From Verrucomicrobiota bacterium (GTDB lineage: Bacteria > Verrucomicrobiota > Verrucomicrobiia > CAIQCK01): a DNA stretch of 64,000 bases. The position numbers and the translations under genes were made by a program. A model generated the notes under the pieces. The model made no database searches. It was not told where the DNA came from and saw nothing but the letters and a program-made list of their open reading frames with translations. The DNA is taken from the NCBI GenBank assembly GCA_016222825.1, contig JACRQF010000010.1, positions 310,001 through 374,000 on the forward strand, written 5' to 3'. Positions 18,002-40,424 of the stretch are shown one piece after another. Each line of letters begins with the position of its first letter. Position 1 is the first letter of the stretch.

Positions 18002-18234
18002 CGCTACTCCGTCAAAAAAAGAAAAAAGCGCGTCATGACTTCGCGCTTCGAATCAACCGTAAGTCACTTCAACGCCAGTTTGGACCAGCCAACAGCGCGG
18101 CGAAGGATACTGAAAGACCTAGGGGAAGCAAGCGGTTTTTTCCGTTCAGACGGGCCAAAGTCCCCGGCGGACACAACCCGCATCGCCGGGAAGCATGGCG
18201 ACCGCCTTCCCTGCCCGTCAACGGATGCCGTCGG

Positions 18235-19491
18235 CTACGGTTGTCGGGCCGCCATCGGCTGCGCGGCCTTCAAGACGGCGTCCATCTGGGCCACGCGCGC
18301 TTGAATCGGGGTGATTTGCTGGTCCAAGGCGAGAACCTGTTGTTGGTAACGGTTGAGAAGATCGCTTAGCTTCTTTGCTTCCTGAGTGCTCGTCATGACT
18401 TTGATTTGCATGTCGTGGATGGCAGTCGTGCCGTCCCCCGTTCCTTTTCGTGTGTTGTAAACCCAGCGACCATTGAACCAATACCCGCGCCCCGTCGCAT
18501 AGACCCTCGCCTCATCGGCTTTCTTCTGCTCCAAGGCCTGGGTGTTCTGGGCCAGTCCGTCCTGTGCAAGCTTGAGTCGCTCTTGAAGCGATTTACATTG
18601 CGCCTCCCATTGCTGCTTGCTGCTTGCAAGCGCCGCCAGTTGCGCGTCGAGCGCCTGCTTCAGCGGCGCCTGCGCCTCGACGGCAACCGCCGGGTCCGTC
18701 GCGGAAGCGATGAACTTGTCCAGATAGGTGATGGCGTCCGCGTGTTTGTTCTGCGTGATCAACAACATCGCTTGCTGGATGGCCGGGTTGGACGAGGCAG
18801 ACGCAACTTTCGCGGGCGCTGGCGCGGCCGCCGCCGCGGGCGCAGCGGAGGCCGGCGGCGCGGGCTGCGTTGGCGCGGCGGGGGGAGTCGCGGGAGCGGC
18901 CGGCGTCGGTTGCGGCGCCGGAGGCAGCGATGCGGTTACCGTTTCGCGCGGCGTCGCCAAAGGAGTTGCCTTGGCGCTGCTGGCCGGCGGCGCGTCGCCG
19001 AAAGGGTCCACGTTGCTGAGCTTCTGATAGGCCCAGTAAGCGCCGCCAGCCACCGCCGCCAGCACCACGACCTGCACAAGCCTGAGCGCGGCGGTCTTGA
19101 ACGCTGATCCCGCCGAACTCGCGCGGGCGGCGTGGCGTTGCGGCCACATGGGCGTTCCGACGGCAGCCGGCGCGACCGACGGCACCGGCAGCGTCAGCTT
19201 GATCTCCGTGGTTTCAAACTGCGCCTCCACCGAACCAAAAGCCACCTTGTCGCCGTCCTGCAACGTCGCAACGATCACCTTCTCCCCGCGGATGCGGGTG
19301 CCCAAGCCGGAGCCAAGGTCCCGCAACACGCATTCCCGGTTCTTGCGGACAATGGCGGCGTGGCGCTCGGCCACCGAGGCATCGTCAACGCAAATCCCGT
19401 TCTCCGGCGAGCGCCCGATGGTGATTTCCTCGCCGATCAACTCGGCGGTCGCGCCCGCGAGCGGGCCGTTGGTGAAACTGAGCTTGTCCAT
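18235..19491 (-). CDS. FHA-domain membrane protein with a coiled-coil tail
   Basis: 418 residues. Residues 1-95 form an FHA phosphothreonine-binding domain with GRS (26-28), S39 and H44, but the usual Asn of the GSxNGT loop is Leu (GSGLGTRI), which may weaken binding. A single membrane helix follows at about 135-157, then a Pro/Ala/Thr-rich linker (180-240) and a charged coiled coil (about 280-415) with a Trp/Tyr motif (GRGYWFNGRWVYN) that would lie outside the cytoplasm. AAGGAGGACG precedes the ATG. A link between a phospho-signal inside and the envelope is suggested by the layout only. Confidence 0.82.
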   Translation of the reverse strand: MDKLSFTNGPLAGATAELIGEEITIGRSPENGICVDDASVAERHAAIVRKNRECVLRDLGSGLGTRIRGEKVIVATLQDGDKVAFGSVEAQFETTEIKLTLPVPSVAPAAVGTPMWPQRHAARASSAGSAFKTAALRLVQVVVLAAVAGGAYWAYQKLSNVDPFGDAPPASSAKATPLATPRETVTASLPPAPQPTPAAPATPPAAPTQPAPPASAAPAAAAAPAPAKVASASSNPAIQQAMLLITQNKHADAITYLDKFIASATDPAVAVEAQAPLKQALDAQLAALASSKQQWEAQCKSLQERLKLAQDGLAQNTQALEQKKADEARVYATGRGYWFNGRWVYNTRKGTGDGTTAIHDMQIKVMTSTQEAKKLSDLLNRYQQQVLALDQQITPIQARVAQMDAVLKAAQPMAARQP

Positions 19492-20126: not shown

Positions 20127-20210
20127 GCGGGCGTGGCGGAATGGCAGACGCATCCCGTTTAGGGCGGGACGCCGCAAGGCTTACAGGTTCAAGTCCTGTC
20201 GCCCGCACCA
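20127..20210 (+). tRNA. tRNA-Leu (anticodon UAG), CCA encoded
   Basis: 84 bases. The acceptor stem is GCGGGCG paired with CGCCCGC, followed by A and an encoded CCA. The anticodon arm is TCCCG-TTTAGGG-CGGGA with TAG as anticodon, a short variable arm follows (class II, Leu) and the T arm is ACAGG-TTCAAGT-CCTGT. It reads CUN Leu codons. Confidence 0.93.
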
Positions 20211-20280: not shown

Positions 20281-21648
20281 TCATTGGATGGGCACGGTCA
20301 TTCCCGGCCCGACAGGACCGCACGGCTGCCGCCGGACTCTTTGGGCGTCGCGGACTTGAGCCAGGAGCGCGGGGATTGTCTTGAGGATGATTTTCAGGTC
20401 CAGCCAGAGGGATTTGTTCCGAACGTAGGCGATGTCCAACTGCATCATTTCGGTGAAGGTGGTCCGGTTCTTGCCGCTGACCTGCCAGAGGCCCGTCAGC
20501 CCCGGCAGGGCGTTGAACCGCTCCTTCTGCCACGGCTCATACTTGTCATATTCGTAAGGCATGCAAGGGCGCGGGCCGACGAGGCTCATCTCGCCGCGGA
20601 GCACGTTGATGACTTGCGGCAACTCGTCCAGCGCGGTCACTCGAAGCAGCCGGCCGCAGGGGATGAGCCGCAGGTCGCCGTGCGAGTCCATCTTCGTCAT
20701 CGGCAGGTTGGAGCCGATCAGGTGATTCAAATGGGCTTGGTGAACCGAGGTGTCGGCGCCGGCCGCCATGCTGCGGAACTTGAGGCACGTGAACCGCCGG
20801 CCCCGCCATCCCACGCGCTCCTGCCGGAAAAGCACCGGCCCGCCAGAGGCCAGTTTGACCGCCAGCGCAACGAGCAGCATCAGCGGAACCAGAAGAGGAG
20901 ACGCAACACCAACGCACCCCACGTCCAGCACCCGCTTCCAGAGCGGCGCCCGCATGGAGCCAGCGCCGTCCAACGCCCCGAAACGGGGTTCAACGGTCGC
21001 CGCGTTTGTCTTCAGCGCGCGGAGCCGTGGACGGGAGCGATATCGCCGAAGACCCGCCAAAGCCCAACCGCCCACGCCCAGCAGCGCCGACGCGCCCGGC
21101 TCAGGCACCACGGTCAGCGTGAACGTCCCCGGCGGCCCAAACTCGGTGATGTCTTCGCCCGGAGTGTTGTTGATCAGTTCCGCGCCTTCGGTCGTGAACA
21201 CGTAACTGCCCGGCTGCAAGGAACTGGTGTTGAAATAGTAGGTGCCGATCGCCCGGTCCGTAAACGCCGCATAATCATCGTCAGGATACCAGTTGGTGAT
21301 GCCGTCGTGGGTTCCGCCAACCAAGGCGCCGCCCACCGGCGCCTGGCCGAAGCCGTCGAGGTCCCCCGCCACGAACGGGTCGTTCAGCGCCGTCAGTGGC
21401 GCGACGGCCCGGTAGGTCAGGGCGTCTGCCGGCGTCGTGGTGATGTAGTAATAGAGCCCGCCCACCGGATGGCCGTCGCTGTCCGCGCGAAGGTCCAGCC
21501 CATACGTGGGCGTTCCCATGATGACCCAATCAATCGAGACCGCGGCAGTGCCCGACTTGACCAGTTTGAGTTGCGGACTGGCAACGGCCGTCGCCATCCC
21601 CACCCAGACGGTGAGGGCCAGAAGCGCCAATGTTCTCAACGGTCTCAC
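20281..21648 (-). CDS. PEP-CTERM protein fused in frame to an exopolysaccharide sugar transferase
   Basis: 455 residues from a GTG at 21648. Residues 1-24 are a signal peptide and 25-180 a beta-rich exported domain (GGLYYYITTTPADAL, IGTYYFNTSSLQPGSYVF). Residues 181-206 are a full PEP-CTERM sorting signal: VPEPGASALLGVGGWALAGL followed by RRYRSR. Instead of ending, the frame runs through a 25-residue linker into a bacterial sugar transferase (WcaJ/EpsL type) from about residue 232: WKRVLDVGC, the GGPVLFRQERVGWRG and CLKFRSM motifs, LRVTALDELPQVINVLRGEM, SLVGPRP and LPGLTGLWQVSG. Such enzymes load a sugar phosphate onto undecaprenyl phosphate on the cytoplasmic face, which fits the PEP-CTERM helix topology. 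An internal ATG at 20955 could also start the transferase separately. Confidence 0.82.
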   Translation of the reverse strand: MRPLRTLALLALTVWVGMATAVASPQLKLVKSGTAAVSIDWVIMGTPTYGLDLRADSDGHPVGGLYYYITTTPADALTYRAVAPLTALNDPFVAGDLDGFGQAPVGGALVGGTHDGITNWYPDDDYAAFTDRAIGTYYFNTSSLQPGSYVFTTEGAELINNTPGEDITEFGPPGTFTLTVVPEPGASALLGVGGWALAGLRRYRSRPRLRALKTNAATVEPRFGALDGAGSMRAPLWKRVLDVGCVGVASPLLVPLMLLVALAVKLASGGPVLFRQERVGWRGRRFTCLKFRSMAAGADTSVHQAHLNHLIGSNLPMTKMDSHGDLRLIPCGRLLRVTALDELPQVINVLRGEMSLVGPRPCMPYEYDKYEPWQKERFNALPGLTGLWQVSGKNRTTFTEMMQLDIAYVRNKSLWLDLKIILKTIPALLAQVRDAQRVRRQPCGPVGPGMTVPIQ

Positions 21649-21676: not shown

Positions 21677-24600
21677 TCAGTCCAACGTGATGGTGACGCG
21701 GCTGGGAGCGACCAGGCTCGCGCCGCCGGTGGGATTGAGCAAGTCCAGTTCGATGGTGCGCCCGACCGCCGCTTCGTTGCCCAGCAGCGGCACGATGAAC
21801 GTCTTGCTTGTCTCGCCGTCGGCGAAATGGATCGTCTCGGCCACCGGGTTGTAATCCGTCCACGGCGCCGCCGTGCCGCCGGTGGTGGCGATGCTCACGC
21901 TGGCCGCTCCCGCGCAGCCGCCAAAGCGCGTCACGGTGACGACCGCGCCGTTGCCTTCCGCCAACGCCCTGCCCGCTGCCGCGCTGAACCGGAACATGCC
22001 CGGCGTCTCGAACTCCTCGTCCGTGATCGTCAGCACGGCGCTGGTCTGCGCACCCAGTGTCGCGCCGCCGCCCGGATTGCTCAACGTCAGGTTGACGGTG
22101 CCTTCGCCCGTCCAGAGCAGGCCGTTCAGCACGATGATGCTGATGGCCTTGCTCGTCTCGCCCGCCGCGAAGCTCAGCGTGCCGGCCGCGCTGAGGTAGT
22201 TGATGCCGGCGATGGCGGTGCCGTCGCTCGTGGCGTAGGCCACCGTCACAGGCAGCGTGCCGTCGGCGCGCGTGACGGTCACCAGCATATTTGTCGCGGT
22301 CGCCATCACGCCGTAACCGGCGGCGCTGAACTCCACCGTGCCCGGCTGGCCGCCGCCGCCACCGCCCGGCGGCGTCGTGGGCGACGCCAGCATGTGGGCG
22401 AGCGTGTTCTTGACGGCCTGCTGGTCGCCGATGGTGATGCCGCCGCTCAGGTTCAGGTCGCTGAGGTAATTGGCCGATGTCAGGGCCCTGCCGAGCGCGT
22501 TCTTGACGGCCTGCTGGTCCCCGATGGTCACCGAGCCGTTGCGGTTCACGTCGCCGTAGAGGGCGCGCACCGCGACGCTGCTGACGCCGCTGACCGCGTT
22601 GCCGGCGAGGTCGGTGATGCCGGGCATGGCGACCGTCACGATGGTCTGGTCCACAACCGCCGTGAGGTTCAACGTCAGGCTACTGCCGCTGATCGTGGCG
22701 CTGCTGAACGTCGCGTTGGCAATCGTGAAGTCGTTCGCGCCGATCTGGCCGTCGGCGGCGACGATGCTCTTGTTGAACCCGATCACGAGCTTCGTCGGTC
22801 CGTCCTTGCGCGGCTCCACGGTGACGGTTGAACCGAGCGCCAGCGGCATGTCGAACGTCCCGGCGCCGCCGTGCGTCTTGCGCGACACCGCCGCGGTGAT
22901 CGTGGGGCTGGCCGTGTCAATCGTCACCACGGCCGCGGCCGACGTGACGGACTGCGCCATGCCGGGCTGCGTCTGCCGGGCAACGATGCTGTGCGCGCCG
23001 CTGGCCAACGCCGCGGTGCCACTGGTGGTCACGTCGGTGGTCGCGCCGGCCGCCGTGGCCGAACCGATGGCGGTGCCGCCGTCGTAGAGCACGACCGTCG
23101 CGCCGGCAACCGTGCCTGTCACCCGGAAGGCGAGCCGCTTGTTCGCAGTGCTATTGTCGAGATTGGTGAGGTTGTCGCTGGTGGACGCGCCCGTGTCACT
23201 CGCCGCCAGCAGTTGCACGCTGGTCGGCGCCGCGCTGGGCAGGCTGTTGGTGAAGACCATGTCCGCGCCACGAGTGAGGCCCGCGCTGTTGGTGGCCACC
23301 AACTGATAATGATACGCCGCGCCAGGCGTCAGTCCTGTCAGCGCCGCCGCCACCGCCACGTCCTCGACGCCGTTCCCGACGGATTGCAGCGCCGTGACGT
23401 TGCCGTAGCTGGCATCCAGGCCCCAATGGAAATAGATCGCTGTCGCCAAGCCGTTCGGATTGACGCCGCCGTTGAGCGTGGCTACGTTGCCCGCCACGCC
23501 CGTCGCCGGCCATGTCGCCACCCACGTTCCGCCCAGCAGGTCCACCGGGTCCACTTCCACCGGCGAGAGCCAGATGCCCGTGATGCCAGGGCCCACGCCC
23601 AACTGACCGTAACGGTTGCTGCCCCAGCCCCACAGCGTGTGAGGCAGGTCGGCCCTCAACACCACCGTGTGCGACGCGCCGGCCACGACCGGCGCCATGC
23701 CGTTGAACGCCGGCACCTGCACCGGCGCCAGCCGCGTCGTCGTCGTGCCGTCGCCGAGCTGGCCGTGGCTGTTGTAGCCCCAGCACCAGATGGTGTGGTC
23801 GCTCTTCGCCACCACGTTGTGCGCGTCGCCCGCGGCGATGGCCGTCACGTCGGTCAGGCCAAACACCTGCACCGGCGTCAACCGCTGCGTCGTCGTCCCG
23901 TCGCCGAGTTGTCCCTTGGTGTTCAGGCCCCACGCCCAAACCGTGCCGTCGGCTTTCAGCGCCACGCAATGGTCGAGACCCGCGCCCACCGCAATCACAC
24001 CGCTCAAGCCGCTGACCTGCACCGGCGTGCGGCGATCCGTCGTCGTGCCGTCGCCGAGCCGGCCGTTGGCGTTCCAGCCCCACGTCCAGACCGTGCCGTC
24101 GCTCTTCAACGCCACCGAATGATACTGGCCGGCCGCGACGGCCCGCACGCCGCTCAGGCCCGGCACCTGAATCGGCGTCAACCGCCGCGTGATGGTGCCG
24201 TCGCCGAGCTGGCCGCTGCCGTTGTTGCCCCAAGTCCAGACCGTGCCGTCGGCGCGCAACGCCATCGAGTGATAGTAGCCGGCGGCGATCGCGGTCACGC
24301 CGTTGAGGCCGCTGACCCGCACGGGCGAGAGCCGCGTCGTGGTGGTGCCGTCGCCGAGCTGGCCGGAGGTGTTGTAGCCCCACGCCCAGACCGTGCCATC
24401 CTGCTTCAACGCCATCGAGTAGAGGTCCTTCGCGGAAACCGTTGCGACGCCGCTCAGCGTCACGAGTTGCTCCGGGATCAACTGGCCGGTCACGGTGCCG
24501 TCGCCGAGCTGGCCGTTGTCGTTGTTGCCGATCACCCACACCGTGCCGTCAGCCTTCAGCGCCACCGTGTGCAGGCGGCCCGCAGCCACCGCCGGGATTG

Positions 24601-27600
24601 GCACGCCCTCGCCTATCGTCAGGCTCACGCTCTGGCTGGCCGCCGCGCCGTTCGCGTCGGTCACTTCCAGCGTGAAGCTGTAGGTGCCCGCGGTCGTCGG
24701 CGTGCCGCTCAACAGACCGTCCGCACCCAACGTCACTCCTGCCGGTAACGAGCCGCCGGTCACGAGCCAGGAGTAAGGTCCGGTGCCGCCCGTCGCCAGC
24801 AACGTCTGGTTGTAAGCGCCGCTCACCGTTCCGCCCGGCAGCCAACTGCCCAGCGTGAACGAGATCACCGTCAGGCTAAAGGTCCGCTCGGCGTAGAGCG
24901 CGTCCGAGCCGGTCACGCGAACGCGGAAGGTCGTGCCGGTTGACGTCGGCGTGCCGCTGATCGTGCCGCCGCTGGCGAGAGTCAGGCCCGCCGGCAGGCT
25001 GTTCGACACCACCGTCCAACTGTAAGGCGTGCCGCCGCCGCTCGCCGACAACGCCTGAGAGTAGGCGCTGCCCGCCGTCGCGGCCGGCAACGGCGACGCC
25101 GTTGCGATCACCGGCGCGACGCCGCTGTTGGTGAAGACCCTGTCCGCGCCGTAGCTGATGCCTGCGCTGTTGGTCGCCACAAGCCGGTAGTGGAACACGC
25201 TGTAAGCCGACAAGCCCGCCAGCGGCGCAGTCACCGCAACCTCTGCGCTGCCGCTGCCAACCGCCTGCGAGATCGTGACGCTGCCGTAGTTGGTCGTCGC
25301 GCCCCACTGGAACTGGGCGGTCGTCGCACGGCCTCCGGGATTGACCGTGCCGTTGAGCGTCGCCGCCGTGCTCGTCACGCCCGTCGCCGCCAACGTCGTC
25401 GCGATAGGCACGCCCTGCGAGTTAAAGCCGCCGACCTGCACCGGCGTGCTCCAGAGCGCGGTGGTGCCGTTGCCCAACTGCCCATAGACATCGCTGCCCC
25501 ACGCCCAGACCGAACCGTCACTCTTCGCCGCCACGGAATGGCCGTTGCCTGCGGCGATGGTCGCGCCGTTGCTGAAACCGGCCACCTGCACGGGCGCGCG
25601 CCGCTCCGTCGTCGTGCCGTCGCCGAGCTGGCCCTTGGTGTTCGCGCCCCACGCCCAAACCGTGCCGTCGCTCTTCAGCGCGATGGAATGCGTGTCGCCA
25701 GCCGCAATCGCGATCACATCCGTCAGGCCGCTCACCTGCACCGGCGTCGTCCGCTGCGTGGCAGTGCCGTCGCCAAGCTGGCCGTTGCTGTTGTAGCCCC
25801 ACGCCCAAACCGTGCCATCGCTCTTCAGCGCCAGGCTGTGGCTCACACCCGCCGCCACCGCCGTCACGTTCGCCAGACCGCTTACCTGCACCGGCGTCAT
25901 TCGCCGCGTCGTGCTGCCGTCGCCAAGCTGGCCGTTGCCGTTGTAACCCCACGCGTTGACCGTGCCGTCACTCTTCGCCGCCAAAGAATGATACTGGCCC
26001 GCCGCCACCGCCGTCACGTTCGCCAGACCGCTTACCTGCACCGGCGTCATTCGCCGCGTCGTGCTGCCGTCGCCAAGCTGGCCGTCGCTGTTGTGGCCCC
26101 AAGCCCACACCGAGCCGCCCGACCGCACCGCCAACGTGTGGTAATAGCCCGCCGAGATCGCCGTCGCGCCGTTGAGGCCGCTCACCTGCACCGGCGTTGA
26201 ACGGCTCGTCGTGCTGCCGTCGCCCAACTGCCCCATCGCGTTCCAGCCGCAGGCCCAGACGGTGCCGTCGTTCTTCAGCGCCACCGTGTAGAGGTCCTTC
26301 GCCGAAACTGTGGTCAGGCCGCTCAGCGAAGTCACCTGCACTGGCAGCAGCCGCTGCGTCGTCGTGCCGTCGCCGAGCTGCCCGTTGTCGTTGTTGCCCC
26401 AACTCCAGAGCGAGCCGTCGCCCTTCATCGCCACGGTATGCCAACGTCCCGCGCCCACGATCGGAGGCACCACGCCGTCGCCAACAGTCAAGCTCACCGG
26501 CAAACTCGCCGTCACGCCCGTGGCCGTGTCCGTCACTTCGATGGTGAAGCTGTAACTCCCGGCGACCGTCGGCGTGCCGCTCAAGACACCGCCGGCAGCC
26601 AGCGCCACTCCCGCCGGCAACGCGCCGCTTGTCACAAGCCACGTGTAAGGCCCGGTGCCGCCGCTCACCGTCAACGTCCGGTTGTAGCTCGCGTCAATGA
26701 CCGCCGACGGCAGCGCAACGCCGTAGCCGAACGAGAAAACGGTCAGGTTGAAGTCGCGCTCCGCGTAGTAGCCGTCCGCGCCGGTTGCGCGCACGTGGAA
26801 ATTCGCCGCGCCCGCCGCCGTCGGCGTGCCGCTGATCGTGCCGTCGGCCGCGAGCGTCACGCCCGCCGGCAAGCTGCCCGACACCACCGACCACGTGTGC
26901 GGCGCCAGCCCGCTGCTGGACGAGAGCGCCGTCGAATAGGCGCTGCCCACAAACCCGCCCGGCAGCGGCGAGAGCGTCGCGATGATCGGCACGACGCCGT
27001 TGTTGGTGAACACGAGGTCCGCGCCATAGACCGTGCCACCGATGTTCTCCGCCACCATCTGGAAGTGATAAACACCGTAAGGCGTCAGCCCCGTCAGGCC
27101 CGCGGACACCGCGACGTTCGTCGTCGCGCTGCCGAGGGATTGCGGCGCGGTCGTGTTCCCGTAGCTGGTCGTTGTGCCCCAACGGAAATACGCCGTCGTC
27201 GGCCAGCCGTCGGGAATGACATTGCCGTTGAGCGTGGCCGTGCTGCTGCCCACGCTCGTCGCCGCCCGCGTCGTCACCAGCGGCGCGCCCATGATATTCA
27301 GATTGTTCATCGCCACCGGCGGCATGGAATACTCCGGCACGCCGTTGCCCAACTGCCCGTAAGCGCCGCCGCCCCAACTCACAATCGTGCCGTCGGACTT
27401 CGCCGCCATCGTGTGGGCTTCGCCGGCCGCGACTGACGCGCCGTTGCTGAAGCCCGCCACCTGCACCGGCGTCGAGCGGTCGGTGTCCGTGCCGTCGCCC
27501 AACTGGCCCTTGTGGTTCCAGCCCCACGTCCAAACCGTCCGATCCGACTTCAACGCCACCGCGTGGTAATGCCCGGCCGCAATCGCCCGCACGCCCGCCA

Positions 27601-30600
27601 GTCCGCTGACCTGCACGGGCGTCAGGCAGTTCGTCGTGCTGCCGTTGCCCAACTGGCCCTTGTTGTTGAGGCCCCACGCCCAGACCGTGCCGTCCCTCTT
27701 CAGCGCAAAAGTGGTATGAACGCCAGCGGCAATCGCCTTCACGTCTGTCAAACCGGGCACTTGCGTCGCCACCATACGGTTCGTCATGGGACCAAGACCC
27801 AATGCACCGTTCTCGTTGTTGCCCCACGTCCAGACCGTGCCATCCATGTCGAGCGCCACCGAGTGATACTGGCCGGCCGCCAGGGAGAGCACGTTCGTCA
27901 AGCCGACCACCTGCACCGGCGTCATCGAATACTCATAAACGTAACCGTCGCCGAGCTGGCCGTTGAAGTTGTTGCCCCACGTCCAGACCGTGCCGTCCCA
28001 CTTCAGAGCCAGCGAGTGATAGTAGCCCGCCGCAACCGCCGTCATCACGTCGTCGAGGCCCGTCACCATCACCGGCGACGAGCGGTTCGTGGTCGTGCCG
28101 TCGCCGAGCTGACCGTTGTTGTTGTTGCCCCACGTCCAGACCGTGCCGTCGGCTTTCAGCGCCACCGCGTAATGATCCTTGCAACTGGCAGACCTGATCT
28201 CGCTCAACCCCACCACCTGCCGGGGCGTGAGCCGCGGGCTTACCATCGTGCCGTCGCCAACCTGGCCGAGTTCGTTGAAGCCCCAACTCCACACCGTGCC
28301 GTCGCCGCGCAACACTACCGTGTGCATCCGGCCCGGTCCGAGGCCCTCGATCGGGTCCACCTCGATCTCACCCAGCGTGTAGAGCGCGTGCGTGTCCCAA
28401 TAGAGCATCGGCAGCAGGCTCGGCAGGTTCGTCTGGCTGAACCGACCCACGTCATAGTTGAAGTCGAAGATGTTGAACAAGTCGCCCGCCATCGGCATGT
28501 AGCCGAGCAGCGACACATCCAGCGTGCCGTTGATGTTGAACGTGCCGTTGATAATGAACTGGTCGAACTCCCAGATGTTGGTGCCGCCGAGTTGCATCGC
28601 CATCATGCTCCCCGGCAGCATCATCACGTCGCCGTTGGCAACCAGCGGGCCGAGCAGATTGCCCGGGGCGATGGTGCCCGCGTTAGTGATCCAAGCCGTG
28701 TTGATCGTGCCAACGCCGGTCAAGGTGGCGTTGGTGTTGATGAAGAGGTTGTTCGTGAACACATGCGTCCCGCCCAGCAACCGCAACGTCGCCGCATCCG
28801 TTCCGTTGCCGACACTGAACAGCGAGCCGTTGTCCACCACGCTGCCGCCGCTGTTGAGCGTGCCGCCGTTGAAGTTCATCACGCTGAGCGCGCCGTTGGT
28901 GAGGTAGAACTGCCCTGCCGTCACCGTGCCACCATCCAGCGTGAACGTGCCGTTGCGGTTGTCGAGCACGGTGCTCGCGTTGACGTTGCCGTTCGACACG
29001 ATCAGCGTCGCACCGCCGTCGTTGATGAAGGTGGCGAGGTTCCCCGTGCCACCGGTGACGAGCCACGAGCCGAGGTTGGTCGCCGTGGTCGCGTTCTGCC
29101 GCCCGCCGCTCTGCCAGACGCTCGCGCCGGGCAGGTTCAGGAAGAGGTCCGCCGTGTTGGTGCCGCCGCTGATCTCCACCGTCGCGCTGTTGGTGAAGAG
29201 TGGCGTCACCAGCACGCCGCCGCTCTGCGCGAACGCTCCCAGGTTGTTCACCTCCGTGGAAACCGTCGCCGCGCCGCCCGTGACGTTGAGCCGTCCCGTC
29301 GCGAGGTTCGTGACGCCACCGGAGACGGTCAGCGTCCCGCCATTCATGCCGAACAGGCCGCCATTCAACACCATCGGCGTCGTCACGCTGCCGTCGTTGA
29401 TCGCCACGACGCTGTTTGCCGCGTCGAGCGAGTAGAGGTTGTCCGCGACCACCACGCCGCTGTTGATCGTCAGCGTGCCGCTGCGGACATCAAGCACGCC
29501 GTTGCCCGCCGCGTTGGTGGCGTAGAGATTGCCGCCGGAAACGGTGAGCAGGTTGTTGCTGGATGTCGTCGGATCGTAGCCGACCATGACATTCGAGGCC
29601 ATCACGCTGCCGCCGTTGGCGATGGTCAGACTGTTGCCGGAGCCAGCTTTGCCAACATAGAGGTCCCGTGCGTTGCTCCAGACCGAGCCGGCGCCTGTCA
29701 CCAGCACCGTGTTGTTGCTGGCAGTGCTACGATAGCCGATGTAGCCGAGTTCACTGATCACCTGGCCGCCGTTGGCGATGGTCAGGCTGTTGCCGGAGCC
29801 ATCATCACCGACAGTGAGGCCCCATGCGTTGCTCCAGACCGAGTTGGCGCCCGTCACTTCCACCGTGTTGTTGCTGGCAATGCTAATACCACCGATGCTG
29901 CCGCTGTCGTCCAACACCCGGCCGCCGTTGGCGATGGTCAGGCTGTTGCCGGAGCCAGCACCACCGACAGTGAGGTAATAATTGCTCCAGACCGAGCCGG
30001 CGCCTGTCACCAGCACCGTGTTGTAGCTGCTGGTGCCATAATTGTAGGAGCCGATTACGCCGTGGCTGTCCAACACTTGGCCGCCGTTGGCGATGGTCAG
30101 GCTGTTGCCGGAGCCAGCATAACCGACAGTGAGGTCCCGTGCGTTGCTCCAGACCGAGCCGGCGCCTGTCACCAGCACCGTGTTGTTGCTGGCAGTGCTA
30201 CCATCGCCGATGAAGCCGTAGTCACTGATCACCTGGCCGCCGTTGGCGATGGTCAGGCTGTTGCCGGAGCCAGCATCACCGACAGAGAGGTAATAATTGC
30301 TCCAGACCGAGCCGGTGTCCGTCACTTGCACCGTGTTGTTGCTGGCGCCGCTAACGTAGCCGATGAAGCCGTAGTCACTGATCACCTGGCCGCCGTTGGC
30401 GATGCTCAGACTGTTGCCGGGGCTATACCAACCGACTATGAGGCTCCCTGTGTTGCTCCAGACCGAGCCGGCGCCCGTCACCAGCACCGTGTTGTTGCTG
30501 GCATCACTCGTATTGCCGATGATGCCGCTCTGGTTGAGCACTTGGCCGCCATTGGTGATGATCAGGCTGTTGCCGGTGCCGGCGTCGCCGACATAAAGCG

Positions 30601-33600
30601 CCCGGTTGTTGGCGTTCTGCAAGACCGAGCCGGCGCCAGTCACCACGACCGAGTTGTTGCTGGCGCTCGCGTAGCGGCCGATGTAGGCCTCGCCATACCG
30701 GTTGATGACCTGGCCGCCGTTGCTGACGATCAGGCTGTTGCCGGAGCCATAGTAACCGACGCCCAGATGATAGTAGTTGCTCCACACCGTGCCCGAACCG
30801 TTCACTGTCACTGTATTGTCAGACGCACCCGCGTTGTAGCCGATCCATCCCGAACCGTTGGTGACCAACGCGCCGTCGTTGATCATCAGGCTGTTGTTGG
30901 CGCTGCTCTGGCCGATATACACGGCGCCGGCATTGGCCCAGAGCGAGTTCGCGCCGCTGACCAAGACAGCATTGCCACTGCTGAAACCCGTGCCCACCCG
31001 GCCGCCCGCGGTGACGACCCGCCCGCCGTTGGTGACGACGAGATTGTTACCTGAACCAAACCAGCCCACGTAGAGTTCGTTGGTATTGTTCCAGACCGAG
31101 CCTGCGCCCGTCACCAACACACGATTATCCGTCGCCCCGCTGTAGTAGCCAATGTAGCCGTCGCCGTTGATGACCTGGCCGCCGTTGCTGATCACGAGGT
31201 TATTGCCAGAACCTGAGCCGCCAACCCGGAGATGAGCGGCGTTGCTCCACACCGAGCCAACGTCGCTCACCGTTACCAAGTTGTTGCTGCTCGAAGCAGC
31301 GGACCCGATCGTAGCTGAAGCCGGGCCCAACACCCGGCCGCCGCCACTGATCATCGCCTCGTTGAACGAACCGGCGTTGCCGATAGTCAGCGAGCCGTTG
31401 AGAAGACCGCTACTGACCGCCAAAATCCCGTGATCTTCGCTGACGAAGTTGGTCAGGTTCGCGGTGCCGCCGGAGATTGTCCACGCGCCGAAGTTCGTCG
31501 CCACGCCCGCGTCCTGCTGGCCGCCGCTCTGCAACACGATGCCGGACGCTTGGTTCAGGAACGTCGCCGCCTGGTTCTCGCCCGCGCTGAGCGTGAAGCC
31601 GCCGCTGTTGTTGAAGTCCTGCGCAGCGAACACGCCGCCGGTCTGGTTGAATGAGCCGAGGTTGTTCGCCGGCCCCGTGACAGTCGCCGAGCCTCCACTG
31701 AAGTTAAACGCGCCGCCAGCCGCGTTGGTGAAAACGCCGCCCACGTTCAGCAGTCCGTCGGCCATGCCGAACTGGCCACCGTTCACCAGCACCGGTGTCG
31801 TCAACGTGCCAATGTTCATCGCCACCACGCTGCCGGCCTCCGTCACGAACGATCCGTCTGCCGTGACGATGCCGGCATTCATCGTCAGCGTTCCGGTTCC
31901 AGCGTTGACGAAGTTCGTCAACTTCGCCAGTCCTCCGCCGGAGATTGTCCACGCGCCGAAGTTCGTCGCCACGCCCGCGTTCTGCTCGCCGCCGTTCTGC
32001 TGGATGACACCGGCGAGTTGGTTCACAAGCAACGCCGCCGAGTTGGTGCCGCCGTTGAGCGTCAACGCGCCGCTGTTGCCCAAGTGCGCCGACTCAAAGC
32101 CGCCGCCGGTCTGCGTAAACACTCCCTGGTTGTCCATCTGCGCCGTCACGCCCGCCTGGCCGCCGCTCAAATCGAACGTCGCTCCCGCCGCGTTGGTGAA
32201 CGCACCCGCCACGCCGAGCGTGCCGCCCGCCACGGCGAAGTCGCCGCCGTTGAGCACGGTTTGCGCCGCGAGGCTGCCGCCGTTCAACGCCAACGCGCTG
32301 CCGTTGGCCGTCACCAATCCACCGACGTTGAGCACGCCGTTATTGATGGCCAGCGCGCCTGCGCCGTCGTTGACGAAGTTGGTCAGGTTCGCCGCACCGC
32401 CGGTGACCATCCACGCGCCGAGGTTGGTTGCCACGCCCGCGTTTTGCTCGCCGCCGCTTTGCAGCACCGCGCCCGCGGCCATGTTCACAAACAACGCCGA
32501 CGTGTTGGTGCCGCCGCTGAGCGTGAACGTGCCGTCGCTGACGAAGTTGGCCAGGTTCGCTACGCCGCCGGAGATCGTCCACCCGCCAAGGTTGGTCGCC
32601 ACACCCGCGTTTTGCTCGCCGCCGCTTTGCAGCACCGCGCCCGCGGCCATGTTCACAAACAACGCCGACGTATTCGTGCCGCCGCTAAGCGTGAACGCAC
32701 TGTCATTGTAGATGTTCGTCAGATTCGCCAAGCCACCGGAGATCTCCCACACGCCGAGGTTGGTGACCACGCTGCCATTCTGCGCGCCGCCACTGAACAA
32801 AAACACGCCGCTGTTGGCCAGCACCGCCGCGTCGAGCACACCCCCGTCCTGTGTCCACGTCCCACTGTTGTCCACCAGCACCGATACCGCCGCGCCGCCG
32901 CTTTGATTGACGGTGCCAGCATTGCTGAATGCACCAGCCACGTCCAACGCGCCGCCCGTCATTCCAAAAGCCCCGTTGTTTGCCACCAAACGCGTCTGCA
33001 TGTTACCGCCACTGACCGTCAGCGAGCCGGCGGCGTCGTTGATGAAGTTGGTCAGGTTCGCCACGCCGCCGGCGACCGTCCATGTGCCGGAGTTCGTCAC
33101 TGTGTTCACATTCTGCTCGCCGCCGCTCTGGTTCACGACGCCGGTGAGCAGGTTCAGGAACAACGCCGCCGAGTTCGTGCCGCTGCTGATCGTCAGCGTG
33201 CCGCTGTTGGAGAATTCCGCCGGGTCAAACATGCCGCCGCTCTGCGTGAACGTCCCTTGGTTGTCCATCAGCACCGGCACCGTCGCGGTGCCCCCGCTGA
33301 GGTTGAACACGCCGCCCGCCGCGTTGGTGAACGCGCCCGCCACGTCCAACGCGCCGCCCGCCATGTCGAACTGGCCGGCGTTCACCAGCACCGGCGCAGT
33401 GAGCGTGCCGCCGTTCAGCGCCACGTTGCCGCCGAGGCTGGTCACGAATGAGCCGGCAGCGTTGACCGTTCCGTTACTGATCGTCAGCGTGCCACCGTAG
33501 CTGGTGAAATTGGTCAGGTTCGCGACACCGCCATTGATGATCCACACGCCGCGGTTGGCCGCCATGTTCGCGTTCTGCTCACCGCCGCTGAAGAGCAGCG

Positions 33601-36600
33601 TGCCGCTGTTGAACAACCACTCCGCGCTGAAGGCGCCTCCGCTCTGTGTCCATGCTCCTGCGTTGACCATTTGCAACCGACTCGTCGCGGTGCCGCCGCC
33701 AAGGTTGAACGAACCTCCGACACTGTTGGTCAACAAAATCGTGTTCAACGCCCCTCCTGACATGGTGAATTGGCCACGGTTCTGCGCATACCTGGCTGTT
33801 ACGCTGCCATCGCTCAGCGCCAGGAAGCCTCCCGTGTCCACGAGCAGGGAAGGATAATCAAAGCTAGGAGCGGTGGCATGAAGCGAGCCGCCCGAGACAC
33901 TCACCAGATTGCTCGTGCCGCCCCCCACATAAACACTGGCTGCTGTTACCAAGCCGTTGTCCGTGAGAACGAGACTGTTGCCGGAACCAGGGCCGCCAAC
34001 GAAGAGATAGCCCCAGTTACTCCACACGGAGCCGGAGCCGCTTACGAGAACGGTATTGCTCCATCCTCCCTGCCAGCCGCCAACCTGCCCCTGAGCAGCG
34101 ATCACCTTGCCGCCGTTCGTAATGGTCATGACGTTATCGAAGCCCCAGCGGCCGATAAGAAGCGACCCGGCATTGCTCCAGAGCGAGCCAGAACCGGTCA
34201 CGAGAACAGCGTTGCTCCATCCATTGCCTACGGCATTGTCTGCCAGAAAACCCTCGGAGAACACCTGTCCTCCGTTGGCGATGGTCAGGCTATTGTTGGC
34301 AGAACCGCCTTGGCCAACAATGAGCGGACCACCACTCCTCCAAACCGAGCCGGAATCCGTGACCAGCGCGCTATTATTGTGAGCACGGAAGTGTTCGCCG
34401 ATAACTCCCCAGTCATCGTTTTCCATCTGACCACCGTTGTTGATGATCAGTTGGTTGCCGGAACCGTAGCTGCCGACAACGAGCGACCGGTTCCTCCAAA
34501 TCGAACCTGAGCCGCTCACCAACGCCACGTTGTTGCTGCTGAATTCAGTCTCGCCCAAGACATCGTCGCCACGAACGCCGCTGTTCCAAGGCCCCACCAC
34601 GCCGCCGTTGGTAATGACAAGCTGGTTGAACGATCCCGTGCCACCCACTGTCAGCGCCCCATCAAACGTGCCGCCGGAAACTGTGAGAATGGCCGAGCCG
34701 TCGTTGACAACCCTATCGCTTTGGGCCGCGCCGGCGGCGATGGTCCACGTGCCGAAGTTGGTTGCCGCATACCATCCCGCGACCATAACGCCGCCATTTT
34801 GCTGCACAACGCCGCTCGAAAGATTCAAGAATCTGTTTCCAGTCCAATTCGTCCCACTCCCGACAGTCAGTGTGCCACTGTTCTCAAAGTCCTCTGTGCG
34901 GAACACGCCATTCCCCTGGGTAAACGTGCCCCTGTTGTCCATCGTCATCCATGAATCAAAATCGTTCACATCACCGCCGCTGAGGTTGAACACGCCTCCC
35001 GCCGCATTAGTGAACGCCCGATTCACGTTCAGCGTCCCGCCCGCCATGTCAAACTGGCCGCCATTCACCAACGTCACCGACGTCACGCTGCCGCTGCCCA
35101 GCGTCGCCGCGCCGCCGTTGACGAAGCCGGCCAAGTTGGCCACACCGCCGGAGACGGCCCACGCGCCGAGATTGGTTGCCACATTCACATTCTGCTCACC
35201 GCCGCTCTGCTGCACGGTGCCCGACGCCAGATTTAAGAGCAACCGGGCTGTGTTTGTGCCTGCGTTGATCGTCACCGTGCCGCTGTTGTTGAGCAGCGCC
35301 GAGTCAAATACGCCGCCGCTCTGCGTGAACGTCCCCTGGTTGTTCATCCGCACCGGCACGCTTGCGGTGCCACCGCTGAGGTTGAACGCGCCGGCCGCTA
35401 GGTTCGTGAACGCTCCGGCGACGCTGAGCGTGCCGCCCGCCATGCCAAACTGGCCGGCGTTCACCAGCAACGGCGCGGCCAGATTGCCGCCGTTCATCGC
35501 CACGATGCCGCTGCCGCTGGTCGTGAAGAGACGGTCGGCCGTCACGCTGCCGCTGTTGAGCGTCAATGTGCCACGGCGAATGTCGAGGACGGCTTTGCCC
35601 GCCGCATTGGTCGCGTGAAGGTTGCCGCCGGAAACCGTCAGCGCGTTGCCCGTCGAGAGAGCGTCAAAGCCGACGACCACATTGGTGGCCATCACGCTGC
35701 CGCCGTCGTCAATGCTCAGTTGGTTCAGCGCGCCCGTGTAGCCGAGGAACAAACCCACGCTGTTGCTCCAGAGCGAGCCGGCTCCGCTCACCAGCACGTT
35801 GTTGTTGTCCGCCCCAGCGGCACGCCCCACATAGCTCGCCGCGCCCGCAACAATCACCTGGCCGCCATCGGTGATGGCCAGTTGGTTGCCCGCGCCGGCA
35901 TAACCGACGTTAAGGCCACTGCTGTTCCTCCAAGCGGAGCCAGCGCCGCTGACCAGCGCCGCGTTGTCGTTAGCGCCGGCATTGTTGCCCATGTAGCCAG
36001 TGCTGTCGAAGACCTGACCGCCATTGGTGACGATCAGTTGATTCCCGGAGCCTAAAAGACCCACATAGAAGACGGTGCTGTTACTCCAGACCGAGCCGGC
36101 GCCGCTGACCAGCACCACGTTGTTGCTTGAATCCGCGCTGTTACCCACGTGCCCCCTGCTGTCCGTCACCTTGCCGCCGTCAGTGATGGCCAGTTGATTA
36201 TCGGAGCCATGAACACCCACATAGAGGTAGCTACTGCTGCTCCAGACCGAACCGTTGCCGGTGACCACCACCCTGTTGTTGTCCGCGTTCGCCGTGTTGC
36301 CCAGGTAGCCCATGCTGTTGAAAACCTGGCCGCCGTTGGTAATCGTCAGTTGGTTGCCGGAACTGTTATTGCCCACATAGAGATAGCTGCTGTTGCTCCA
36401 TGTCGAGCCGGCGCCGCTCACCAACACGGTGTTGTTGCTCGATGTGGTCGCGTAGCCCACGTAGCCGGTGCCGTTGAGAACCTGGCCGCCGTCTGCAATC
36501 GTCAGGGTGTTGAACGCACCGTTATTGCCCACATTAAGGCCGGCGCTGTTGCTCCACACCGAACCCGCGCCGCTGACCAACGCCACGTTGCTCCGGCTTC

Positions 36601-39600
36601 CCACGGCCTGACCGATGGAACCAAGCCTGTCAGCCACCACACCACCGTTGTTGATCGTCAGTTGGTTGAACGATCCCGTGCCGCCCACCGTCACCGCGCC
36701 GTTGAGCGTGCCTCCCGAAACCGTTAGCGTCGCCGAGCCGTCGTTGACGAAATTCGTCAGGTTCGCCACGCCGCCGGTGATCGTCCAAGAGCCGAAGTTG
36801 GTGGCGTAATTTACGTCCTGCTCGCCGCCGCTCTGCTGGACGGTGCCGCCCGCCAGATTCAGGAACATGGTCGCCTCGTTGGTGCCCGCGCTAATCACCA
36901 ATGCGCCGCTGTTGATGAACTGCGCGGGATCAAACACGCCGCCGCTCTGCGTGAACGTGCCTTGGTTGCTCATACGCACCGGCACAACCGCGTTGCCACC
37001 GCTCATGTTGAACGCGCCGCCCGTCGCGTTGGTGAACGCACTCGCCACGCTCAACGTGCCGCCAGCCATGTCGAACTGGCCGGCGTTCGACACCGTCGGC
37101 GCGGTCAAGCTGCCGCCGTTCAATGCCACGATGCCGCTGCCACTGGCCGTCTGCAACGCGTCCGCGAACACGCTGCCGCTGTTGAGGGTCAGCGTGCCGT
37201 AGCGAACCTCAATCGCTCCGGTGCCCGTGGCGTTGGTGGCGTAGAGGTTGCCGCCGGAAACTGTGATGGCGTTCCCGCTGGATGACTGGACACCTACAAC
37301 CACGGTCGCAGCCGCCACCGTGCCGTCATCGGCGACGGTCAGGCTGTTGCCGGAACCGGCGTTGCCGACATTGAGGGCGCCGTTGTTGTTCCAAGCGGAG
37401 CCAGAGCCGGTCACCACGACTGCGTTGTTGTTCGCGCTGGAAGCAGCGCCGATCTGGCCCAAACTGTCGAACATTTGGCCGCCATTGGCAATGGTCAGGC
37501 TGTTGCCGGAGCCCCCGTTGCCAACACCCAGTTGACCGCTGCTGTTGCTCCAGACGGAGCCGGCACCAGTCACCAAGACCGTGTTGTTGCTCGAACTGGC
37601 GTGCCAACTGATAATGCCCCAAGTGGAGAGAAGCTGGCCACCGTTGGCAATGGTCAGGCTGTTGCCGGAACTTTCGTAGCCCACAGCAAACTCCACGCTG
37701 TTGTTCCAGATGGAGCCAGCGCCGGTCACCAACGCCGTGTTGTTGCTCGCGCTGGTGTGCAAGCCAACAAAACCCTCGCTGTTGAAGACGTGGCCGCCGT
37801 CGGCAATCGTCAGGCTGTTGCCGGCGCCATTTACGCCCACACCCATGTTAACGCTGCTGTTCCAGACGGAGCCGGTGCCGGTCACCAAGACCGTGTTGTT
37901 ATTCGCGCCGGCGTTCACGCCGATCTCGCCGCCGGTGTTGAAGACCTGGCCGCCGTTGGTAATGGTCAGGCTGTTGCCGGAGCCAGAGTTGCCGACATAG
38001 AGGCTGCTGCTGTTGCTCCACACGGAACCGTTGCCGGTCACCAAGACCGCGTTGTCGCTCCCGTTGGCGTAGTAGCCGATGACACCGAGGTTGTTGAAGA
38101 CCTGGCCGCCAGCCGCAAGGGTCAGGCTGTTGCCGGAGCCAGAGAGGCCGACAGACATGTCGCTGCTGTTACTCCAGACCGATCCGGTGCCGGTGACCAG
38201 CACTGTGTTGTTGCTCGCGCCGCTGCCGCTGCCGATGCGTCCGACGCTGTCGAAAACTTGGCCGCCGTTGGCAAGAGTCAGGTTATTGTTAGCGCCAGCG
38301 TTGCCGACATACACGTCGCTGCTGAAGACCCGGCCACCGTCGTCAAGGGTTAGACTGTTGCCGGAACCAAAGTAGCCAACGTGCAAATTGACATTGTTGC
38401 TCCAGAGGGAGCCAGAGCCGGTCACCAAGACCGTGTTGTTGCTCGAGCTGGTGTTATAGCCGATGACGCCGCTGATGTCGGAGACCCTGCCGCCGTTGGT
38501 GATGACCAGGCTGTTGCCGGAGCCGAAGTAGCCGACAGACATGTCGCCGTTGTTGCTCCAAACGGAGCCGGGACCGGCAACCAACACCGTGTTGTTGCTG
38601 GCGTCGGCCGTGTAGCCCACGTAGCCGCTGGTGTTGCGGACCTGCGCGCCGTCGCTGACAGTCAACTGGTAGCCGGACCCGGCCGCGCCCACGAACAGGC
38701 TGCCGCTGTTGTTCCAGAGCGAACCCGCGCCGGTGATGGTCGCGTAGTTGAAGTTGGCAATGCCCGTGGTGCCGATCTGGCCGCCGGTCGCGTTCACCAC
38801 ACCGCCGTTGGTCACCGTCAGCGCGTAGAACGCCCCGGCGGGACCGATCACGTAGGCGCCGGGGTAATTCACCGTGATGCCATCAATGATGTTCGTGAGC
38901 GGCGTCGCCGGAACCAAGTTGATAGTGAGGCTGAAGTCGTTCGTCGAGGTGAGGCCATCGCTGCCGGCCACCAGCACTGTGAAGCTGTTCGCCCCCACCG
39001 CGCTTGGTCGGCCACTGATGACACCATCGCTGCTCAGGCTCAATCCCGGCGGCAGACTGCCCGTCCCCAGCGACCACGTGTAGTTGGTCAAACCGCCCGT
39101 CGCCGCCAACGTTTGGCTGTAAGGCACGCCGATCACGCCATCCGGCAGCGGTGTGCTTGTGATGACCGTCGGTGCCACGCCCAGGTTGGTGAACACCATG
39201 TCCGTGCCGTAGCTGGTTCCCGCCGCGTTGGTCGCAACCAACTGATAGTGATACACGCCATGCGGCGACAGCCCGCCCAGCGCCGCCGTCACTGTCACGT
39301 TCGTGCTCGCGCTGCCCACGTCCTGCCATGATGTGACGCTGCCATAGTCGGTGTCGCTGCCATACTGGAATCGCGCGCCCGTTGCCAACCCGTTTGCGTT
39401 CACCGTGCCGTTGAGCGTCGCTGCGCTGCTGGTCACTTCCGTCGCAGACAATGTCGCCACCTCCGGCGCTACCAACGGCACGCCTTTGCTGATGCGGCTG
39501 TTCCCAATGTCCGCCACGAACATGCTGCCCGCGCTGTCCACCGCCACGCCAAAAGGATCGTTGAACCGCGCCGCACTGCCGGTGCCATCCGCACTGCCGC

Positions 39601-40424
39601 TATTCCCCGCGCTACCCCCGATCGTCGTCACCACAACGGCGGGTGTCATTTTCCGAATCGTGCAGTTGCCGGAGTCCGCCACAAACACGTTGCCCGCGCT
39701 GTCCACCGCCACGCCGGAAGGCCAGTAAAACTGCGCCGCGCTGCCCGTGCCATCCGCACTGCCAGAAAACCCCGCGAGACCCGCCAGCGTCGTCACCACT
39801 CCAGCCGCCGTCACCTTCCGGATCGTGTGGTTCCTAGAGTCCGCCACGAACACGTTGCCCGCGCTGTCCACCGCCACGCCGGTAGGATAGTAGAACCGCG
39901 CCGCGCTGCCCGTGCCATCCGCACTGCCAGAGGCCCCCCCGAGACCTGCCAGCGTCGTCACCACGCCCGCGGGTGTCACTTTCCGAATCGTGTTGCCGGC
40001 AAAGTCCGCCACAAACACGTTGCCCGCGCTGTCCACCGCCACGCCGGGCCACGAACACGTTGCCCGCGCCGTCCACCGCCACGCCGCGAGGCCTGTTAAA
40101 CCGCGCCGCGCTGCCTGTGCCGTCGGCACTGCCAGAAGACCCCGCGAGACCCGCCAGCGTCGTCACCACTCCAGCCGCCGTCACCTTCCGGATCGTGTGG
40201 TTGTAGGTGTCCGCCACAAACACGTTGCCCGCGCTGTCCACCGCCACGCCGGTAGGATAGTAGAACCGCGCCGCGCTGCCCGTGCCGTCATCCGCGCCCG
40301 TTACGGTCGGCATGCCGGCGAAGTTGGCCCAAGCGTAGGCGATGTCGCCTTGCGCATGGACTGAAACAACGGCCGCTGACAAAGCCAGCCCTGTTGCGAT
40401 CAGACTCAGTAGACTCTTCTTCAT
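21677..40424 (-). CDS. Giant secreted multi-repeat protein, frame interrupted near 40047
   Basis: About 6,250 codons. The true start is the ATG at 40424 (GAGAGGTG ribosome site) with signal peptide MKKSLLSLIATGLALSAA to VHAQG; an apparent start at 40129 in the other frame is an artefact of a frame break inside the NHL repeats near 40047. Order from the N-terminus: NHL repeats; fibronectin-like and putative-Ig (He_PIG) domains; a roughly 3,500-residue beta-helix-like repeat region; then three rounds of seven RCC1 repeats separated by fibronectin-like and putative-Ig domains; two Ig-like domains; a type I dockerin-like domain; two Calx-beta domains ending SRVTITLD. No PEP-CTERM, LPxTG or type IX tail is visible. 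It is probably a surface or released adhesin/scaffold. The PEP-CTERM-transferase gene follows after 28 bases. Confidence 0.82.
21680..22345 (-). other. Two Calx-beta domains at the C-terminus of the giant protein
   Basis: The domains read VEFSAAGYGVMATATNMLVT ... GINYLSAAGTLSFAAGETSK and FRFSAAAGRALAEGNGAVVT ... YNPVAETIHFADGETSKTF. DYxxxxGTLxFxxGETSK is the Calx-beta signature; these modules bind calcium and stiffen adhesins. Confidence 0.85.
22395..22565 (-). other. Type I dockerin-like calcium-binding pair
   Basis: Two copies of a calcium-loop helix: YGDVNRNGSVTIGDQQAVKN and DLNLSGGITIGDQQAVKN, separated by about 30 residues. D-x-N-x-x-G-x-x-x-x-x-D matches the dockerin loop. No cohesin gene is seen in the window. 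Confidence 0.8.
22570..23535 (-). other. Ig-like and fibronectin-like domains between the last propeller and the dockerin
   Basis: From N to C: a fibronectin-like unit (ATLNGGVNPNGLATAIYFHW ... LTPGAAYHYQLVATNSAG), a bacterial Ig-like unit (GTVAGATVVLYDGGTAIGSA ... VTIDTASPTI) and a second Ig-like unit (VVDQTIVTVAMPGITDLAGN). Confidence 0.7.
23540..24595 (-). repeat. RCC1 propeller 3 (seven repeats)
   Basis: Seven repeats of about 50 residues built on HxxALKxDGTVWxWGxNxxGQLGDGT. The seven core words are WVIGNNDNGQLG, WAWGYNTSGQLG, WTWGNNGSGQLG, WTWGWNANGRLG, WAWGLNTKGQLG, WCWGYNSHGQLG and WGWGSNRYGQLG: one complete seven-blade propeller. Confidence 0.88.
24600..25395 (-). other. Fibronectin-like plus two putative-Ig (He_PIG) domains, copy 3
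   Basis: A fibronectin-like unit (ATLNGTVNPGGRATTAQFQW) is followed by two He_PIG units marked by SNSLPAGLTLASGGTISGTP and GGSLPAGVTLGADGLLSGTP. It separates propellers 2 and 3. Confidence 0.75.
25400..26470 (-). repeat. RCC1 propeller 2 (seven repeats)
   Basis: Seven RCC1 repeats with core words WSWGNNDNGQLG, WACGWNAMGQLG, WAWGHNSDGQLG, NAWGYNGNGQLG, WAWGYNSNGQLG, WAWGANTKGQLG and WAWGSDVYGQLG. Two adjacent repeats share STTRRMTPVQVSGLANVTAV almost exactly, also at DNA level, showing recent duplication. Confidence 0.88.
26480..27285 (-). other. Fibronectin-like plus two putative-Ig (He_PIG) domains, copy 2
   Basis: A fibronectin-like unit (ATLNGNVIPDGWPTTAYFRW) is followed by He_PIG units with SGSLPAGVTLAADGTISGTP and SGALPAGVALAAGGVLSGTP. 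Same order as the linker between propellers 2 and 3. Confidence 0.75.
27290..28345 (-). repeat. RCC1 propeller 1 (seven repeats)
   Basis: Seven RCC1 repeats: WSWGFNELGQVG, WTWGNNNNGQLG, WTWGNNFNGQLG, WTWGNNENGALG, WAWGLNNKGQLG, WTWGWNHKGQLG and VSWGGGAYGQLG. It follows directly on the end of the beta-helix region. Confidence 0.88.
28355..38880 (-). repeat. Roughly 10.5-kb beta-helix-like repeat region of the giant protein
   Basis: Two repeat classes alternate. Class A, about 50 residues, is built on NNTVLVTGAGSVWSNS, then VGxxGSGNSLTIANGGQV and GxIGxxxxAS. Class B is built on GGTLxVAGAFTNAAGGxFNL, SGGTATVPVxMxNQGTFTQS and QQSGGEQNVxxATNxGxWTI. At DNA level class A units at about 29600-30600 recur every 150-160 bases with very high identity. 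The Asn/Gly/Ser-rich pattern with one aliphatic strand per turn resembles autotransporter-type beta-helices. The block ends in a beta-sandwich-like cap (LVANGDVMMLPGSMMAMQLG). Confidence 0.8.
38905..39470 (-). other. Fibronectin-like and putative-Ig (He_PIG) domains, copy 1
   Basis: A fibronectin-like unit (ATLNGTVNANGLATGARFQY ... LSPHGVYHYQLVATNAAG) and one He_PIG unit (GTGSLPPGLSLSSDGVISGR) link the NHL array to the beta-helix region. Confidence 0.75.
39480..40310 (-). repeat. Array of 165-bp NHL repeats with one truncated unit
   Basis: Units encode PTGVAVDSAGNVFVADSxNH, TIRKVTAAGVVTTLAGLAG and SSGSADGTGSAARF. The shared CACGTTGCCC word recurs at 39686, 39851, 40016, 40056 and 40221, and a one-base variant at 39521. 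The steps are therefore exactly 165 bases, except for a single 40-base step. The array should form an NHL beta-propeller near the N-terminus. Confidence 0.9.

Follow-up and report, generated by a model that had tools for sequence, protein, structure and literature searches.

The fused gene and its surroundings

The DNA analysed here (the window, whose positions are used throughout) comprises 64,000 nt of a Verrucomicrobiota bacterium (GCA_016222825.1, JACRQF010000010.1:310,001-374,000). On its reverse strand, positions 21648-20281 hold a single open frame of 455 aa that runs from a GTG at 21648 to a stop codon at 20283-20281. The frame opens with a signal peptide (residues 1-24, 21577-21648), recognized by a hydrophobic N-terminus followed by 'AVASP', by alignment with the signal peptides of homologues and by a helix in the predicted model. 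This is followed by an exported β-sandwich domain that appears cohesin-like in AlphaFold2 and Foldseek analysis (residues 25-180, 21109-21576), the PEP-CTERM tail VPEPGASALLGVGGWALAGLRRYRSR (residues 181-206, 21031-21108), a linker (residues 207-234, 20947-21030) and the catalytic domain of a small monotopic phosphoglycosyl transferase (PGT; residues 238-429, 20362-20937), identified by PF02397, Foldseek and phmmer. The protein ends in a short C-terminal extension after the PGT domain. Separate PEP-CTERM homologues start in the region that aligns with the GTG, and each half has homologues over its full length, which argues against a frame open by chance. The join of a PEP-CTERM protein and a PGT in one frame is thereby confirmed, and the parts listed in a preliminary description of this DNA (signal peptide, exported domain, PEP-CTERM tail and transferase) were all recovered from the open frame and the domain searches.

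Directly upstream of the fusion, on the same strand, lies an 18,453-nt open frame (21677-40129) whose stop is situated 28 nt before the GTG. It encodes a giant exported-type protein of 6150 aa, in which domain searches revealed RCC1 repeats, He_PIG and Calx-beta, and inspection by eye autotransporter-like repeats. A type I dockerin domain of this protein is located at 22400-22558 on the reverse strand (PF00404 above the cut-off). On the other side a convergent tRNA-Leu (20127-20210, forward strand) is found at 70 nt from the 3' end of the fusion. Synteny with three genomes of the same genus (G001-G003; the window's own genome is G000) breaks at 18144 and at about 40896, and the flanks are on different contigs in these relatives. 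This implies that the giant gene and the fusion stand in a rearranged, lineage-specific region, a plausible setting for a new gene neighbourship and for the fusion. Integration at the tRNA-Leu was considered and dropped, as this tRNA, with its near flank, is conserved across the genus next to different genes and no integrase was noted. The FHA-domain protein encoded at 18235-19491 (reverse strand) has a paralogue at G000:C4:70831-72159 (62%) and tandem copies in G003:C12. Dockerin-bearing large proteins related to the 6150-aa protein occur in the genus, and 17 dockerins were counted in G003.

The PEP-CTERM tail

When the fusion was searched with TIGR02595 (PEP_CTERM), residues 181-202 scored 17.1 bits against a cut-off of 16. 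The motif reached 22.4 in a genome-wide scan with this profile, above the cut-off, and 17.2 with Pfam PF07589, slightly under the cut-off of 20.7. Separate PEP-CTERM homologues, which are 35-54% identical, stop at the tail, a few residues from the basic cluster. Among the 26 TIGR02595 matches above the cut-off in the own genome, 23 are followed by 0-18 residues and the remaining three by 36 (a doubtful motif without basic cluster), 68 and 253 residues. The last is the fusion, whose motif is not at the extreme C-terminus. An exosortase gene elsewhere in the genome, a point raised by the preliminary description, was found twice, in the form of two PF09721 genes above the cut-off.

The action of exosortases on their substrates, and the reason why their genes accompany exopolysaccharide genes, are still largely inferred from comparative genomics. 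With the PEP-CTERM/exosortase (EpsH) substrates of TIGR02595 (PMC1569441) the fusion shares the signal peptide, the PEP motif, the short hydrophobic helix, the basic cluster and the presence of exosortases in the genome. These substrates usually end near the motif, whereas the fusion continues for 253 residues, an enzyme included. It was described that 87% of the PEP-CTERM proteins have less than 10 residues after the motif, with a median of three, and the few whose tails are far longer were proposed to be possibly non-functional (Haft et al. 2006, PMC1569441). Exosortase may therefore not cut the fusion.

The transferase is a small monotopic PGT

PF02397 covers residues 238-429 with an E-value of 1.6e-59, over positions 1-178 of the 179 in the profile. 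The predicted catalytic pair Asp341-Glu342 (20623-20628, reverse strand) is retained in 'TALDELPQ', which aligns with 'TSLDELPQ' of WbaP and with all separate homologues. The best sequence relatives in the PDB are WbaP and PglC (WbaP 8t53, E 1.6e-34, phmmer), and the predicted model matches the fold of PglC 8g1n with an E-value of 2.5e-12 and a TM-score of 0.75 on the target (Foldseek). Because the N-terminal four-helix bundle and the accessory domain of the large WcaJ/WbaP-type PGTs are absent, the fused transferase is a small monotopic PGT. The earlier label 'WcaJ/EpsL-type' was right as to a complete sugar transferase (PF02397); its type has to be corrected to a small, PglC-like enzyme that consists of the catalytic core.

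The fusion has in common with the small monotopic PGTs (PglC; PF02397) the catalytic core, the re-entrant helix and the Asp-Glu dyad. It differs in the 234 residues ahead of the core, which comprise an exported protein plus a helix that spans the membrane, whereas those PGTs are core only. The bifunctional monoPGTs (Bi-PGTs; PMC10942596) likewise carry an extra functional domain, fused to either end of their PGT core. Bi-PGTs are defined by a recurrent architecture; in the present case a fusion was seen, but as a single case in the genomes searched. To our knowledge, the partners in Bi-PGTs are cytoplasmic enzymes that modify or transfer sugars, whereas the partner in the fusion is an exported, sorted surface protein across the membrane.

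The junction

The linker (21030-20947) counts 28 residues without a stop and has a GC3 of 0.79, similar to the flanking coding parts. The 28 open codons are weak evidence by themselves, as 59% of composition-matched shuffles are open too. With a pLDDT below 50 for residues 199-232 in the predicted model, the linker is predicted to be disordered. The separate PGTs have an N-terminus of 20-22 residues, which matches the linker in the alignment from roughly CTG-212 (21015) onwards. This suggests that the PGT half is complete, and the fusion appears to contain both the PEP-CTERM protein and the PGT in full, with about five codons (207-211) left over.

Frame +1 has a TGA that overlaps CTG-212. A one-base shift would consequently end the PEP-CTERM protein where the PGT begins, which is an ordinary two-gene layout. 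A base missed between 21031 and 20955, by sequencing or in the assembly, could thus have merged two neighbouring genes, and such an error would agree with the out-of-frame TGA at the expected place and with the separate genes in the same-genus relatives. However, a chance TGA within six codons is not unlikely, and the long frame next to the fusion runs 18,453 nt without a stop while DnaB, Omp85, MiaB-like and further neighbouring genes of the window read as full-length, which implies that indel errors must be rare. We hold an error to be unlikely.

Slightly less improbable is that one frame serves for two proteins, the PGT being made mainly by internal initiation at CTG-212, TTG-226 (20973) or ATG-232 (20955), and the read-through product being minor or a poorly sorted, long-tailed PEP-CTERM protein. 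These codons are in frame and lie at or just past the position where the separate PGTs start. Against this reading, CTG is a rare start, and inspection by eye gave no clear Shine-Dalgarno sequence ahead of any candidate.

The two halves in related genomes

The halves are separate genes in 3/3 same-genus genomes (G001-G003), located either on different contigs or at a distance of 160 kb. This largely matches what the preliminary description itself had named as counting against its reading. Separate paralogues of the PEP-CTERM half (C16:129.9 kb) and of the PGT half (C1:44.7 kb, 76% identical over the domain) are present in the own genome too, and because of the latter the fused PGT may be redundant. 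The separate PGTs of the genus are about 74-76% identical to the fused one. In the tree the fused PGT, on a short branch of 0.19, is placed adjacent to but outside the clade of the separate PGTs of the genus, by a fork that is weakly resolved. Pairwise comparison of the fused with the separate PGTs gave a dN of 0.15-0.18 and a dS of 0.9-1.4. The ratios from these pairwise values are about 0.12-0.19, close to the 0.09-0.15 among the separate PGTs. As judged from these substitutions, the fused PGT was constrained for most of its divergence, not necessarily after the fusion.

A second case was not found when the full fusion was queried against 93 relatives, and the tail plus the PGT, queried against 384 genomes of the class, matched only in the window's own genome. 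A pattern-based scan of genome contigs, which detects close relatives only, did not yield a second fusion either; these searches could miss a fusion that arose independently in a distant lineage and has an unrelated exported domain. A few matches starting near residue 188-190 (e.g. L050) were rejected as fusions, since they are ordinary large PGTs in which the match extends into the N-terminal domain. The fusion is real, complete and so far unique within the genomes searched. Since none of the relatives searched has the join, a one-off gene fusion is most likely, not a new system.

The exported domain and the dockerin-bearing neighbour

A dockerin-bearing large protein adjoins the family of the PEP-CTERM half in 5/7 testable loci, which are the window (21031-21648), L038 (3908-4699), L040 (4756-5436, in G001), L044 (4211-5047, in G003, with the dockerin gene downstream) and L045 (1369-2058, in G006). 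L038 is the paralogue in the own genome, and the dockerin motif of its neighbour was seen by pattern only, as Pfam gave none. Homologues without a dockerin neighbour are L042 (G002) and L046 (the second copy in G006), and L094 and L095 were left out of the count because they are too near contig ends. As some of the dockerin-adjacent loci share descent, they are not all independent. In G001 the sole dockerin above the cut-off adjoins the sole full homologue of the PEP-CTERM half. No PEP-CTERM homologue was found beside 18 other dockerin loci, several of which are cut by contig ends, and the idea of such a homologue at every dockerin protein was rejected on this ground.

With the full model as query, Foldseek matched a cohesin of R. 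flavefaciens (5lxv) at an E-value of 5.6e-4 and a probability of 1.00, with a TM-score of 0.46 on the target. With the half alone, several cohesins were found at 0.015-0.17 (5lxv at 0.015). Over both queries the TM-score of 5lxv on the target is 0.42-0.46; the cohesins stay under 0.5, and other adhesin-type sandwiches score nearby. A match to the cohesin family PF00963 was observed neither in the fusion nor in six homologues, and a sequence search of the PDB with a profile of the exported domain gave no significant match. G002, G003, G005 and G006 contain dockerins in the absence of a Pfam cohesin, which leaves room for an unrecognized one. Pfam cohesin domains do occur elsewhere in G000 and G001 and are a possible rival partner for the dockerins. 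They are found as two neighbouring domains per genome, at G000:C8:456644-457719 (L120, L121) and on G001:C28 (L119, L122).

The fusion resembles the cohesin-dockerin pairs (R. flavefaciens ScaC cohesin, 5lxv) in having a predicted β-sandwich with some likeness to cohesins and in its position next to a gene for a dockerin protein. It differs from them in the lack of a Pfam cohesin match, in a TM-score below 0.5 and in being anchored through PEP-CTERM, where those pairs use sortase or SLH domains, and binding is putative. We consider the chances about even that the exported domain has a cohesin-like function. The observations suggest that the small PEP-CTERM family is a candidate PEP-CTERM-anchored, cohesin-like receptor for the dockerin of the 6,150-aa neighbour. 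In the literature searched, no paper combined PEP-CTERM, cohesin and dockerin. If true, the family would give dockerins a specific partner in bacteria without recognizable cohesins. The PEP-CTERM half may be of more interest than the join.

Proposed origin and topology of the fusion

The reading that we favour, with a probability of roughly 0.58, is that stop loss fused two adjacent genes in this lineage, with both halves apparently intact, the join probably incidental and the exported domain most likely a cohesin-like receptor. The small monotopic PGT gene would be a second copy that came to follow immediately behind a PEP-CTERM gene, normally the small partner of a dockerin-bearing large secreted protein. 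One frame of 455 aa, presumably translated as one chain, would then have arisen when the intervening stop was lost or when the tail shifted by one base. The signal peptide would export the first domain, and the PEP-CTERM helix would cross back, leaving the basic cluster and the linker in the cytoplasm. The PGT would be monotopic at the inner face and load sugar-1-phosphate onto undecaprenyl phosphate. A cut by exosortase at PEP would free the exported domain, to act as a cohesin-like receptor for the dockerin of the neighbour, and a putatively active PGT would stay in the inner membrane by means of the helix. The halves are probably separable by exosortase. The exported part outside and the transferase inside, as claimed in the preliminary description, agree with where members of the PEP-CTERM family are known to lie in the membrane. 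The monotopic inner-face position of the monoPGTs fits the topology as well (PMC10942596).

It had further been proposed that the join ties the sorting of surface proteins to glycan priming. In such a selected, exosortase-processed bifunctional protein, the cut would release the surface domain and free or activate the PGT. The topology and the two exosortases are in line with this, as is the location of the separate PGT, which in three genomes of this genus (G000, G002 and G003) shares its contig with an exosortase gene at a distance of about 24-27 kb. Both halves look constrained, and their conservation would also fit a selected bifunctional protein. However, the halves are unlinked in the genus, their separate homologues function without each other, a PGT paralogue persists in the own genome as a gene by itself, and the fusion is a singleton across all genomes searched, the 384 class genomes and the contig scan included. 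Moreover, no exopolysaccharide cluster was recognized around the fused copy in the gene list of the window. Selected coupling is therefore possible but unsupported, and we regard it as unlikely, though less so than internal initiation or an error. It is decidedly doubtful that one chain combines release of a PEP-CTERM receptor with glycan priming beside a giant dockerin protein held by that receptor, so that adhesin, receptor and primer would be co-produced. In the stop-loss fusion that we prefer, the join is probably tolerated. A natural chain with an exosortase target and a glycan-priming enzyme across the membrane would make a convenient reporter, as cutting should change the size and location of both halves.

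The frame with the 68-residue tail (L166, G000:C16:156037-156105) may be a precedent for stop loss in the own genome. Nothing was recognizable in this tail, which reaches the start of an apparent next signal peptide and is therefore a second apparent read-through past a PEP-CTERM motif in this genome. Three PEP-CTERM motifs are present inside 4 kb around L166 (C16:152.4-156.1 kb).
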